This document shows positions 2,809-31,344 of a stretch of 64,000 nucleotides of DNA, piece after piece. The DNA comes from Isoptericola cucumis (GTDB lineage Bacteria; Actinomycetota; Actinomycetes; Actinomycetales; Cellulomonadaceae). The notes beneath the pieces are model-generated. The model searched no databases. It had not been told where the DNA came from and saw only the letters and a program-made list of their open reading frames with translations. Numbering within the stretch: position 1 is the first letter of the stretch; each line of letters starts with the position of its first letter. Both the position numbers and the translations under genes were made by a program. The stretch covers positions 310,001 to 374,000 of the forward strand of contig NZ_BMDG01000001.1 in assembly GCF_014635665.1 (NCBI RefSeq). The letters are read 5' to 3'.

Positions 2809-3076
2809 CGGTGCACCTCACCCGGACCCGCGATCCTCCTTCACCATAGGATTCCGCGGCCGTGCTCGCGACCACCGGGGCGACGAACCGCCACCGACGT
2901 CACGGCGACCGACCCTCGGGCGACGAAGGCTCGCCTGGCCTTGCTGGCGGACCCGGCCCACCCTCCCTATCCTGGAATCGTTCAAGAAAACGAGCCGCCC
3001 TTCAGGCGGAACGACGAGCATGCGGGTGACCGCCGCACGACCCGGGCGATCAGCCGCGAGGAAGCGAGGCGCACCG

Positions 3077-3568
3077 ATGTCCGCACCCACGATCAAGCGC
3101 AACACCGCCCGAGCCGAGGCGTCCGACAAGCTGCGCGCCCACCTGCAGCGCCTGCTCGTCGCGCTGGTCGACCTGCACGTCCAGGGCAAGCAGGCCCACT
3201 GGAACGTGACCGGCCGCGGGTTCCGCGACCTGCACCTCCAGCTGGACGAGCTCGTCGACGTCGCGCGCGAGCACAGCGACGTCATCGCCGAGCGGCTGCG
3301 CGCCCTCCAGGCGGTGCCGGACGGCCGCACGGAGACCGTCGCCACGACCACCGACCTCTCCCCGTATCCGGCCGGGCTGGTGTCCGTCGGCGACACGGTC
3401 GACGCGATCGTCGAGCGCGTGGCGCAGACCGTCGAGGTCGCGCGCGAGGTCCACGACGACGTCGACGCCGAGGACCCCACCACCGCCGACCTGCTGCACG
3501 AGGTCATCACCGACCTCGAGAAGCAGGCGTGGATGATCTCGTCCGAGAACGCCGAGACCGGGGCCTGA
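3077..3568 (+). CDS. dps: Dps-family DNA-binding ferritin-like protein
   Basis: This 163-residue protein is expected to form a dodecameric shell that oxidises and stores iron and protects DNA in starvation or peroxide stress. The ferroxidase signature is visible: HVQGKQAHWNVTG (His plus the Trp next to it), then LHLQLDELVDVAREHSD, which carries the Asp and Glu ligands shared between subunits. The N-terminus is basic (PTIKRN), suited to DNA contact. The ATG at 3077 is preferred over an upstream GTG at 3020 because a purine-rich GAGG-type segment precedes it and the family begins near this residue. A strong bidirectional terminator follows. The 268-base gap before it shows no convincing sigma-70 promoter to me; the TATCCT at 2968-2973 is a weak candidate. 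Confidence 0.9.
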   Translation: MSAPTIKRNTARAEASDKLRAHLQRLLVALVDLHVQGKQAHWNVTGRGFRDLHLQLDELVDVAREHSDVIAERLRALQAVPDGRTETVATTTDLSPYPAGLVSVGDTVDAIVERVAQTVEVAREVHDDVDAEDPTTADLLHEVITDLEKQAWMISSENAETGA

Positions 3569-29018: not shown

Positions 29019-29040
29019 GCCTGGTCCTCCTCGGTCGTGC

Positions 29041-29085
29041 CGGGGAGAGACCTCCCCGCGCTTGCCCGACGCCGGTCGGCGCGGG
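29041..29085 (-). promoter_or_regulatory. Overlapping hairpins after the SAM-IV aptamer (expression platform)
   Basis: On the minus strand a stem CCCGCGC/GCGCGGG (29085-29079 with 29061-29055) contains an inner CCGAC/GTCGG stem. A second hairpin, 7 bp with a 4-base loop, spans 29058-29041. The two share bases 29055-29058, so they are mutually exclusive: the arrangement of a switch between the aptamer and the GAGGAGG ribosome site. Confidence 0.5.
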
Positions 29086-29172
29086 CCAGGTCGTCACCCG
29101 GGGCACCCCGCCGCGAGAGGAGGGTTGCCGGCCAGCGAGCCGGGGCTTCGCGCTGGCGCTCTTGACCTGTGC
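29086..29172 (-). promoter_or_regulatory. SAM-IV riboswitch upstream of the desulfurase-like gene
   Basis: Read on the minus strand: GGTCAAGAGCGCCAGCG, AAGCCCCGGCTCGCTGG, CCGGCAACCCTCC, GCGGCGGGGTGCCCCGGGTG and ACGACCTGG occur in the order and spacing of the actinobacterial SAM-IV aptamer. P1 pairs 29164-29169 with 29087-29092; P2 is CCAGCG/CGCTGG. A TTGACG (29204-29199) with GAGCAT 17 bases later places the transcript start at the first base of P1. SAM binding is expected to lower expression of the downstream gene. Confidence 0.85.
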
Positions 29173-29426
29173 ACCATGCTCAGGTCGGCCCGCCGCGTCG
29201 TCAAGCGCTGGGACGGTGCTTCTCACGATGCGGTCAGCCGGAGGGTGCCCGCGCGCCGGGTGGGCGCGCCGTGGCCTCCGAAGCCGCCGCCCAACCCCCC
29301 TCACCACACCACCGCGGGAGGTCGTCGGCACCCTGGACCTCCGGCCGGTCGTGGGGGCGCACGGGCGGCGGGAGCGACACACGTTCGCTTCGCGAGACGG
29401 GGTGCCCAGCAGGCGGACGGCTGTCG

Positions 29427-29556
29427 TACGATCGCCAGGACCATCCCGAGCGGCCGAGTGACGTGGCACGTCGACGCCGCAGCAACCCGCGGGCCGGGGT
29501 CGCCGCCTGTCGGCGCACCACCGTCCGGACGAGGGTGCTACCGCCACGACCGATGG
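29427..29556 (+). promoter_or_regulatory. SAM-I (S-box) riboswitch upstream of rhodanese-metZ
   Basis: From 29441: CCATC (P1), CGAGCGGCCGAGTGACGTGG, GACGCCGCAGCAACC, a variable P3 hairpin, GGGTGCTACCGCC, then GATGG (29552-29556) closing P1. These are the core blocks of the S-box aptamer in its actinobacterial form. A TACGAT -10 (29427-29432) puts the start at about 29439, so P1 begins the transcript. The closing strand of P1 overlaps the GGGAGG ribosome site (29555-29560), which implies that SAM-stabilised P1 hides the Shine-Dalgarno. Confidence 0.85.
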
Positions 29557-29566
29557 GAGGAGTGCG

Positions 29567-30082
29567 ATGACCGCGCCTGCACCGACACCTGGCTCACGCC
29601 CCGACGCCCGACCGGCCACCGGCTACGCCGGCGACCTGACCCCCCAGCAGGCGTGGGACCTGCTGGCCGGCGACCCCGACGCCGTCCTCGTCGACGTGCG
29701 CACCGACGGCGAGTGGCGCGCCGTGGGGGTGCCCGACCTCGCCGGGATCGACAAGCGCGCCGTCCTCGTCGAGTGGGTCAAGGCCGGCGGCCGCCCCAAC
29801 GCCGGGTTCCTGGCCGACCTCGGCGCCGCGGGCGTCGGGCCGGGCCGCCCGGTCGTGTTCCTGTGCCGCTCGGGGCAGCGCTCCATCGGCGCCGCCCGGC
29901 TCGCCACGTCGGCCGGCATCGGCCCGGCGTACAACGTGCTGGAGGGCTTCGAGGGCGGCGCCGGGTTCGACGGCGTGCGCGACCGCGAGGGCTGGAAGGT
30001 CCGCGGCCTGGCGTGGGCGGCGTACGACGACGAGCAGGACGACGCCGCGCCGCGCGGCCCCCAGGAGGAGCAGGCCCGGTGA
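29567..30082 (+). CDS. Rhodanese-like sulfurtransferase domain protein
   Basis: A 171-residue single rhodanese domain. DPDAVLVDVRTDGEWRAVG opens the domain and VVFLCRSGQRSIGAARLA holds the active-site Cys loop (CRSGQRS). It carries persulfide sulfur. The ATG follows GGGAGGAG, which is part of the SAM-I switch. Its stop overlaps the metZ start as GTGA, so the two are made together; a plausible job is to feed or recycle sulfur for homocysteine formation, possibly from the persulfide made by the divergent desulfurase-like enzyme (inference). Confidence 0.9.
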   Translation: MTAPAPTPGSRPDARPATGYAGDLTPQQAWDLLAGDPDAVLVDVRTDGEWRAVGVPDLAGIDKRAVLVEWVKAGGRPNAGFLADLGAAGVGPGRPVVFLCRSGQRSIGAARLATSAGIGPAYNVLEGFEGGAGFDGVRDREGWKVRGLAWAAYDDEQDDAAPRGPQEEQAR

Positions 30083-31344
30083 CCGACGCGCAGACCCCCA
30101 CCGGCCCCGGCGCCGACCCCGAGACCTCCGGCGGCTCGCGCCCGCTGCCCGCGAGCGCCCGCCCCGCGACGCTCGCCGTCCGCGGCGGGCACCGGCGCTC
30201 GGACTTCCTGGAGATGTCCGAGGGCCTGTTCCTCACCCAGGGCTACACCTACGGCTCCGCGGCCGACGCCGAGGCGGCGTTCGCGGGCGAGCGGTCGCAG
30301 TTCCTGTACTCCCGGTACGGCAACCCCACGGTGCACACGTTCGAGGAGCGGCTGCGCCTCATCGAGGGAGCCGAGGCCTGCTACGCGACGGCGTCGGGCA
30401 TGTCGGCGGTGTTCAACACCCTCGCCGCGCTGGTGCGCTCCGGCTCGCGGATCGTGTCCGCGCGGGCGCTGTTCGGCTCCACCAACGTCATCTACGACGA
30501 GATCCTCGCCAAGTGGGGAGTGCAGGTCGACCTGGTCGACGGGCACGTGACCTCGCAGTGGGAGGAGGCCCTCGCCACGCCGGCCGACGTCGTGTTCTTC
30601 GAGTCGCCGTCCAACCCCATGCAGGACCTCGTGGACGTGCGGCGCGTGGCCGGGCTCGCGCACGCCGCGGGCGCCGTCGTCGTGGTGGACAACGTGTTCG
30701 CGACGCCGGTGCTGCAGAAGCCGCTCGAGCTCGGGGCCGACGTCGTCGTGTACTCGGCCACCAAGCACATCGACGGCCAGGGGCGTGTGCTCGGCGGCGC
30801 GATCCTCGGGTCCGAGGAGTTCCTCTCGGGGCCGGTGCAGACGCTCGTCCGCAACACCGGCCCGTCGCTGAGCCCGTTCAACGCCTGGGTGCTGCTCAAG
30901 GGCCTCGAGACGCTCGACGTGCGCGTGCGCGCCCAGAACGCGGCGGCGCTGCAGGTCGCGACGGCGCTGGAGCAGCTCGACGGGATCACCGGCGTGCGCT
31001 ATCCGTTCCTGCCGTCGCACCCGCAGCACGAGCTGGCGAAGTCCCAGCAGTCCGGCGGCGGCACGGTCGTGACGTTCGACCTCGACGTGCCCGACGGCAC
31101 CGAGCCCCAGGAGGCGAAGAAGCGGACGTTCGCGTTCCTCGACGCCCTGCAGGTCGTGGACATCTCCAACAACCTCGGCGACGCGAAGTCGATCATCACC
31201 CACCCCGCCACGACCACGCACCGCAAGCTCGGCCCCGAGGGCCGCGCGAAGGTCGGCATCGCCGAGACGACGGTGCGCCTGTCGATCGGGCTGGAGGACC
31301 CGCTCGACATCCTCGAGGACGTCGAGCAGGCCCTGCGCGCCTGA
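30079..31344 (+). CDS. metZ: O-succinylhomoserine sulfhydrylase
   Basis: A 421-residue Cys/Met-metabolism PLP enzyme that makes homocysteine from O-succinylhomoserine and sulfide. Visible are GYTYGSAADAEAAFAGE, YSRYGNPTVHTFEERLRLIE, CYATASGMSAVFNTLAAL and the PLP lysine in VVYSATKHIDGQGR. The GTG at 30079 overlaps the rhodanese stop. SAM-I control upstream fits methionine biosynthesis. MetZ and O-acetylhomoserine enzymes are close, so substrate preference is by best resemblance. Confidence 0.9.
   Translation: MTDAQTPTGPGADPETSGGSRPLPASARPATLAVRGGHRRSDFLEMSEGLFLTQGYTYGSAADAEAAFAGERSQFLYSRYGNPTVHTFEERLRLIEGAEACYATASGMSAVFNTLAALVRSGSRIVSARALFGSTNVIYDEILAKWGVQVDLVDGHVTSQWEEALATPADVVFFESPSNPMQDLVDVRRVAGLAHAAGAVVVVDNVFATPVLQKPLELGADVVVYSATKHIDGQGRVLGGAILGSEEFLSGPVQTLVRNTGPSLSPFNAWVLLKGLETLDVRVRAQNAAALQVATALEQLDGITGVRYPFLPSHPQHELAKSQQSGGGTVVTFDLDVPDGTEPQEAKKRTFAFLDALQVVDISNNLGDAKSIITHPATTTHRKLGPEGRAKVGIAETTVRLSIGLEDPLDILEDVEQALRA

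Follow-up and report, generated by a model that had tools for sequence, protein, structure and literature searches.

Two SAM-clan aptamers of different architecture back to back between a desulfurase-like gene and rhodanese-metZ in Isoptericola cucumis and other Actinomycetota

The locus described herein raises the question of why a desulfurase-like gene and a rhodanese-metZ operon diverge from one intergenic region in which two SAM-clan aptamers of different architecture lie back to back, and whether both units might be placed under joint control by SAM. The window, i.e. the whole stretch of 64,000 nucleotides analysed in the present study, is part of the 4.46-Mb genome of Isoptericola cucumis, and the region between the minus-strand gene and the plus-strand operon (29567-31344) comprises 548 bases (Table 1). 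Profile searches bore out the gene calls of the initial annotation, which had named a desulfurase-like protein, a rhodanese and MetZ. The MetZ scores exceed the curated cut-offs of two models (618 bits for NF005870 and 510.05 bits for TIGR01325), and the start of metZ overlaps the stop codon of the rhodanese gene. The desulfurase scored under the cut-off of every NCBIfam model listed for it, the nearest being SufS (TIGR01979, with a curated cut-off of 475.1 bits). Lys255, His152, Asp229, Gln232 and Cys397 of this protein are unchanged in an alignment of 17 homologues, and by comparison with SufS we take Lys255 to be the PLP lysine and Cys397 to be the catalytic cysteine; the C-terminal extension is also largely conserved in 17 relatives. 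Two more homologues, with 38% identity over the matched parts, are encoded in the same genome, and the gene is therefore not the sole desulfurase candidate of this organism.

Table 1. Features of the divergent region and its flanking genes, in window coordinates
Feature	Position	Strand	Basis
SufS-like class V aminotransferase, putative cysteine desulfurase, 488 aa	27552..29018	-	PF00266 262 bits; TIGR01979 278.5 bits
Shine-Dalgarno GAGGAGG of the desulfurase gene	29026..29032	-	sequence
Hairpin GGGGAG...CTCCCC 3' of the SAM-IV aptamer, probable expression platform	29042..29057	-	tail stem counts
SAM-IV aptamer (P1, P2, P3, PK-1, P5, PK-2 tail)	29053..29167	-	RF00634 99.1 bits, full model 1-116
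Probable PK-2 3' strand GCGCGG	29056..29061	-	sequence and the available text of PMC6890682; exact strand is our own reading
Predicted -35 box (TTGAC) 37 nt upstream of P1, desulfurase promoter	29200..29204	-	conserved spacing
Predicted -10 box (TACGAT) 14 nt upstream of P1, rhodanese-metZ promoter	29427..29432	+	conserved spacing
P4-less SAM-I-type aptamer	29438..29559	+	RF00162 30.7 bits; R1 77.4 bits; pair counts, 77 distinct relatives
SAM-I-type P1	29441-29445/29552-29556	+	
SAM-I-type P2a	29450-29454/29476-29480	+	
SAM-I-type P2b	29458-29460/29467-29469	+	
SAM-I-type PK-1	29462-29466/29544-29548	+	
SAM-I-type P3	29481-29487/29534-29539	+	
Shine-Dalgarno GGGAGGAG of the rhodanese gene	29555..29562	+	first two G are the last two P1 bases
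Single-domain rhodanese, 171 aa, loop CRSGQRS	29567..30082	+	PF00581 34.2 bits, cut-off 22.2; loop from translation
metZ, O-succinylhomoserine sulfhydrylase, 421 aa	30079..31344	+	NF005870 708.1 bits; TIGR01325 570 bits

The two aptamers fared differently in searches with the Rfam models. On the minus strand, the SAM-IV assignment of the initial annotation was upheld by RF00634 at 99.1 bits against a cut-off of 38 (E 6e-17 over the whole window), with the correction that the span first proposed, 29086-29172, misses the 3' part of the element, i.e. some of P5 and the PK-2 tail. The alignment is full-length, takes in P5 and the CAAGCGCGG tail 3' of P1, and has no P4. On the plus strand, RF00162 gave 30.7 bits, under its cut-off of 44.4 (E 6.8e-5, 621 bases), so that for this strand the refuting condition set in the initial annotation, a covariance score under the gathering threshold, formally applies. 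The RF00162 alignment skips most P4 model positions and reads a long P3, and the low score is attributed to the element being of a P4-less actinobacterial form. A model of this form, R1, was built from 36 relatives, with the window's own sequence left out and without PK-1, and it matched the window at 29438-29563 with 77.4 bits (E 4.7e-18), the next match in the 64 kb reaching 13.2 bits. The other SAM-I element of the genome is also P4-less and is located upstream of a metF homologue (TIGR00676, 220.9 bits, under the cut-off of 293.7). In addition, a second, weaker SAM-IV element (61 bits; locus L004, contig C8:82462-82578, minus strand) precedes an open reading frame of about 250 aa with CxxC pairs.

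The spacing of both elements to predicted promoters and ribosome-binding sites is conserved. The initial annotation had placed each transcription start at the first P1 bases by means of a predicted -10 box, and motif statistics over the relatives are consistent with starts near these positions on both strands. The -10 box itself is retained for the SAM-I-type side, where TANNNT occurs 13-15 nt upstream of P1 in 66 of 72 distinct upstream regions, against 5 at the best single position in shuffles. For the SAM-IV side the conserved mark is a -35 box instead: TTGAC is found 36-38 nt upstream of P1 in 87 of 104 distinct upstream regions (3 at the best shuffle position), and the same positional test revealed no conserved -10 motif in these 104 regions. 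At the 3' end of the SAM-I-type aptamer, a GGAGG or GGGAGG built from the last GG of P1 was observed in 67 of 71 distinct elements, and the start codon follows P1 by 5-10 nt in 65 of the 71; this overlap and this spacing fit a mode in which the ribosome site is blocked directly. In the tail of the SAM-IV aptamer, the probable PK-2 strand has two bases in common with the next hairpin. The GG of this strand opens a stem of 5 bp or more in 80 of 87 distinct SAM-IV tails, compared with 28.1 expected from shuffles, and the two structures would thus be in competition for these two bases. A clean model of Shine-Dalgarno sequestration for SAM-IV was rejected, because the effect in partition-function folding was weak: among the 87 tails, PK-2 lowered access to the Shine-Dalgarno sequence by more than 0.1 in 14, raised it in 1 and left it little changed in 72, a shift beyond 0.1 in 15 of 87.

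The arrangement noticed in the initial annotation, in which a single divergent intergenic region holds two architecturally different SAM-clan aptamers, is conserved far beyond the genome of origin. Within the family, SAM-IV was detected in 134 of 150 genomes, and so was SAM-I. Forty family stretches of 7 kb were inspected, 39 of them around the best SAM-IV match of a genome and one (L083) around a SAM-I match. The desulfurase is present in 34 and absent from 6 of these stretches, and all 34 carry the SAM-IV motif upstream of it. Rhodanese lies on the opposite side in 31 of the 34 desulfurase loci, with the SAM-I motif between the two genes in 30 of the 31; the motif was not found between them in L104, and no rhodanese was found within the 7-kb stretch in three loci. 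For named genomes, the best 80 of at least 562 confirmed desulfurase relatives were used, a set in which close relatives dominate. SAM-IV directly precedes the desulfurase in 77 of these 80 loci according to model R2 (the exceptions are L196, L211 and L215), and divergent rhodanese and metZ genes lie beside it in 48, every one of which has a P4-less SAM-I according to R1. The 48 loci come from Isoptericola, Promicromonospora, Xylanimonas, Xylanimicrobium, Myceligenerans, Oerskovia, Paraoerskovia, Cellulosimicrobium, Sanguibacter and Cellulomonas and from two broadly named MAGs. Neither metZ nor rhodanese was found beside the desulfurase in the other 32 loci, within flanks of up to 5 kb (shorter in L175 and L192, owing to contig ends). 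These belong to Nocardioides, Rhodococcus, Arthrobacter, Geodermatophilaceae, Jiangella and others, including one cut Cellulomonas contig, and R1 detected no P4-less SAM-I beside the desulfurase in any of them; one (L200) has such an element about 4.5 kb away, and the R1 matches of two (L198 and L201) are weak, at 20-24 bits. Two loci titled Proteobacteria MAG (L162) and Sporosarcina (L206) are of the actinobacterial type, and their binning or naming appears doubtful.

Related arrangements were also observed elsewhere. In five loci in which the genes are 1.1-3.1 kb apart (L070, L071, L075, L085 and L102), the riboswitches remain next to their respective genes, suggesting that each controls its own gene and that proximity of the two is favoured. 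In another family of the same order (f14), a SAM-IV-desulfurase unit faces a P4-less SAM-I followed by metF in L254, L255 and L290; metE comes next in L254, where metF and the partial metE score under the cut-offs of their models. By their coordinates, the two aptamers lie 138-161 nt apart in five f14 genomes among the matches listed. In family f13 (L291), SAM-IV-desulfurase and P4-less SAM-I-rhodanese-metZ diverge, the aptamers being about 1.6 kb apart. Outside the family, at the level of the order, the P4-less SAM-I precedes rhodanese-metZ, with the desulfurase not in view, at 7 distinct sites in a set of 51 loci, each about 3 kb long. A Klenkia MAG (L192) contains two SAM-IV elements back to back, at 2875-2984 (minus) and 3080-3192 (plus), one before an NtaA/DmoA-type FMN monooxygenase and the other before the desulfurase. 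Some f14 genomes are rich in SAM-clan riboswitches in general, with 13 SAM-I and 7 SAM-IV in G222.

Herein, we propose that the locus is probably governed by two independent, back-to-back SAM-OFF switches, which jointly repress desulfurase, rhodanese and MetZ and are likely to gate the transfer of sulfur to homocysteine. The sequences show the elements, their conservation and pairings, the promoter spacing and the overlap with the ribosome site; SAM binding, the direction of switching and the sulfur route are what we infer. The joint control by SAM that the initial annotation had suggested finds its support as co-regulation in architecture and synteny. Both transcripts would begin close to the first base of P1. 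On the plus strand, SAM would stabilise the P4-less SAM-I-type aptamer, and the closure of P1 would tie up the first bases of the Shine-Dalgarno sequence, resulting in blocked translation of rhodanese-metZ. On the minus strand, SAM would stabilise the SAM-IV aptamer including PK-2, and the choice between PK-2 and the hairpin with which it shares two bases would set the access to the ribosome-binding site of the desulfurase gene. At high SAM, desulfurase, rhodanese and MetZ might all be lowered together. The sulfur of cysteine would pass through a protein persulfide to the rhodanese and then to MetZ, which would use it with O-succinylhomoserine to yield homocysteine, and the likely purpose of the arrangement would be to make this sulfur transfer available only when methionine or SAM is low. 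Such a persulfide-fed route to homocysteine is plausible; it may nevertheless be wrong, since the desulfurase is under the cut-offs of all NCBIfam models listed and metZ was not found in 32 of the 80 named loci.

It is also quite possible, if short of probable, that both switches are real and serve unrelated purposes, the two units sharing a promoter region while the desulfurase meets a cofactor or Fe-S, thiamine or organosulfur demand. Such a division would be consistent with the 32 named loci in which metZ was not found beside the desulfurase (two of them with short flanks), with the FMN monooxygenase as the divergent partner in Klenkia, with the 7 order-level places in which rhodanese-metZ follows a P4-less SAM-I and no desulfurase is in view, and with the filing of a SAM-IV-led desulfurase of Streptomyces lividans under thiamine metabolism in the available text of PMC8079986, but it does not readily accommodate the finding that more than one family has a SAM-controlled methionine operon as the partner (rhodanese-metZ, or metF, with metE added in L254), nor the P4-less SAM-I present in all 48 named loci with rhodanese-metZ beside the desulfurase.

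The preferred reading, joint repression by two SAM-OFF switches, takes the plus-strand element for a variant of SAM-I. The label SAM-I given in the initial annotation is right for the core and wrong for P4, which is missing: the window element has 12 nt between GGUGCU and GAUGG in its place, and this stretch is short and hairpin-free in the 36 relatives. Among 127 distinct elements, the linker measures 12 nt in 118, 11 nt in 4, 13 nt in 2, 25 nt in 2 and 42 nt in 1, a count that leans because some of the loci came through R1, itself without P4. In an alignment of 84 elements (A4; 77 distinct, from 81 sources of our choosing), at most 3 aligned bases separate the PK-1 strand from P1. P1, P2a, P2b, P3 and PK-1 are paired in 99.0% of the cells of the 77 distinct relatives, and 62 cells are changed on both sides, compared with 8.8 in shuffles. 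PK-1 is paired in 98.4% of its cells, and three of its five pairs show compensatory changes (one pair occurs as C-G, G-C or U-A, another as U-A or C-G); since R1 had no PK-1, this count is independent of the model. The split P2, i.e. P2a and P2b, also shows compensatory changes, and its putative kink-turn was judged from the sequence. Across the 77 distinct relatives, no variation was seen in the AUC/GAU of P1 or in six of the seven P3 pairs counted. Columns 24 and 138 of A4, the nucleotides immediately 5' of PK-1 and 3' of its partner strand, tend to covary as well (A/A in 55 and U/U in 10 of the 77 distinct rows), and this co-change might reflect a non-standard contact.

Three published architectures are relevant to the class of this element. 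According to the available text of PMC6890682, SAM-IV lacks P4 and has PK-1, P5 and PK-2 at the 3' end, and SAM-I/IV lacks the split P2 and PK-1 and has P4; in the part of PMC7270179 consulted, the P4 hairpin in the core is listed as one of the features that separate SAM-I from SAM-IV. The spacing from P1 to the Shine-Dalgarno sequence and the start codon appears to leave no room for PK-2 or P5 3' of P1, and with neither P4 nor, by this spacing, PK-2/P5, the element is called SAM-I-type, not textbook SAM-I. Membership of SAM-I/IV was rejected, as RF01725 gave no match at the element in a search of the own genome with E values up to 10. We consider it very improbable that the element represents SAM-I/IV or another SAM-clan class, or that it binds another ligand, e.g. 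SAH: the absence of P4 is a trait of SAM-IV as well, but the split P2 and the supported PK-1 are both lacking in SAM-I/IV as described in the same part of PMC6890682, P1 AUC/GAU and six of seven P3 pairs do not vary, and the neighbours that could be identified are methionine genes. That the element might be a decayed or non-functional SAM-I relic, as its RF00162 score under the cut-off could suggest, is scarcely credible and was rejected, because this score goes with the missing P4 and the long P3, and the nearly invariant core, the compensatory changes in 77 distinct relatives and the maintained promoter and Shine-Dalgarno spacing all argue against decay.

The P4-less form recurs in the order and beyond it. 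Of the 149 genomes of the order, 74 contain a match to R1 and 74 a match to RF00162, which is above the RF00162 cut-off in 67 of them. P4 is absent, as judged by eye or by alignment to R1, from 24 of 26 new RF00162-derived loci of the order (L249-L274), the other two (L249 and L251, of one family) carrying a P4-like insertion, and all 30 RF00162-derived loci of the family (L035-L064) fit a pattern that allows up to 25 nt at the place of P4. Confinement of the form to the order was rejected, as 11 RF00162 loci elsewhere in the phylum (L275-L283, L288 and L289) show linkers of 10-12 nt (eight by pattern matching; L278, L288 and L289 by reading); these loci were picked for shortness and demonstrate the existence of the form there, not its frequency. 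In two longer RF00162 matches in the phylum (L284 and L285), the space is sufficient for P4. Among the 30 best-scoring phylum loci (L219-L248), linkers of about 22-50 nt were located by pattern in all but L223, with L229 and L244 judged by eye; this sample leans to P4, since RF00162 rewards it. From these sequences, the P4-less form appears as a recurring actinobacterial variant, much of it already caught by RF00162, and not as a local oddity. In one locus (L064), two P4-less SAM-I elements are located on the same strand at 385-487 and 1501-1597, 1.1 kb apart, and the listed coordinates suggest the same kind of doublet in G014, G037 and G068. A more far-reaching proposal, which we regard as tentative and rather doubtful, is that a minimal SAM-clan architecture across Actinomycetota, with the SAM-I core, split P2 and PK-1 and without P4 or P5/PK-2, would be a plausible intermediate between SAM-I and SAM-IV, and that the pair would mark an undescribed SAM-controlled persulfide route in which desulfurase and rhodanese feed MetZ.

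Several parts of this arrangement have precedents. A SAM-IV riboswitch upstream of a cysteine desulfurase, together with an S-box SAM riboswitch in the same genome, is reported for S. lividans in the part of PMC8079986 seen, and the consulted section of PMC2258182 describes, for SAM-I, a ribosome-binding site that forms part of the 3' strand of P1. In the available portion of PMC1262725, no conserved RNA structure is reported before the methionine operons of the Actinobacteria studied, and in that of PMC3766115, 13 SAM-IV sites are counted and grouped among narrowly spread motifs. Compared with known SAM-IV (RF00634), the minus-strand element is alike in its full-length match and in having PK-1, P5 and a probable PK-2 but no P4, and differs in facing a second SAM-clan switch on the opposite strand. 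The plus-strand element shares the P1, split P2, PK-1 and P3 core and the overlap of P1 with the ribosome site with SAM-I/S box (RF00162), and differs in having about 12 nt instead of P4 and in scoring under the cut-off, which many P4-less relatives pass; with SAM-I/IV (RF01725) it shares the SAM clan and gives no match. Tandem SAM riboswitches (double SAM-I; SAM-II/SAM-V) likewise place two or more SAM aptamers close to a single gene set, but these are arrays on one transcript, as described in the parts seen of PMC9481103 and PMC12452182, whose main texts do not contain the word "divergent", whereas the present pair lies on two diverging transcripts. A partial literature search brought up no paper that we recognised as describing divergent SAM-I/SAM-IV pairs or P4-less SAM-I. 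Thus, SAM-IV before a desulfurase and the overlap of P1 with the ribosome site were already known. Neither the P4-less form nor the conserved back-to-back pair turned up in the literature searched.

These findings have several implications. First, the pair, which is retained in much of the family, offers a natural setting in which SAM-I-type and SAM-IV switching could be compared side by side within one cell and at one SAM concentration. Second, the P4-less form suggests that P4, which is used as a mark of SAM-I, is dispensable, and it bears on the origin of SAM-IV. Third, that a widespread desulfurase is paired repeatedly with metZ or metF points to a role of this enzyme in methionine supply that is so far undescribed.
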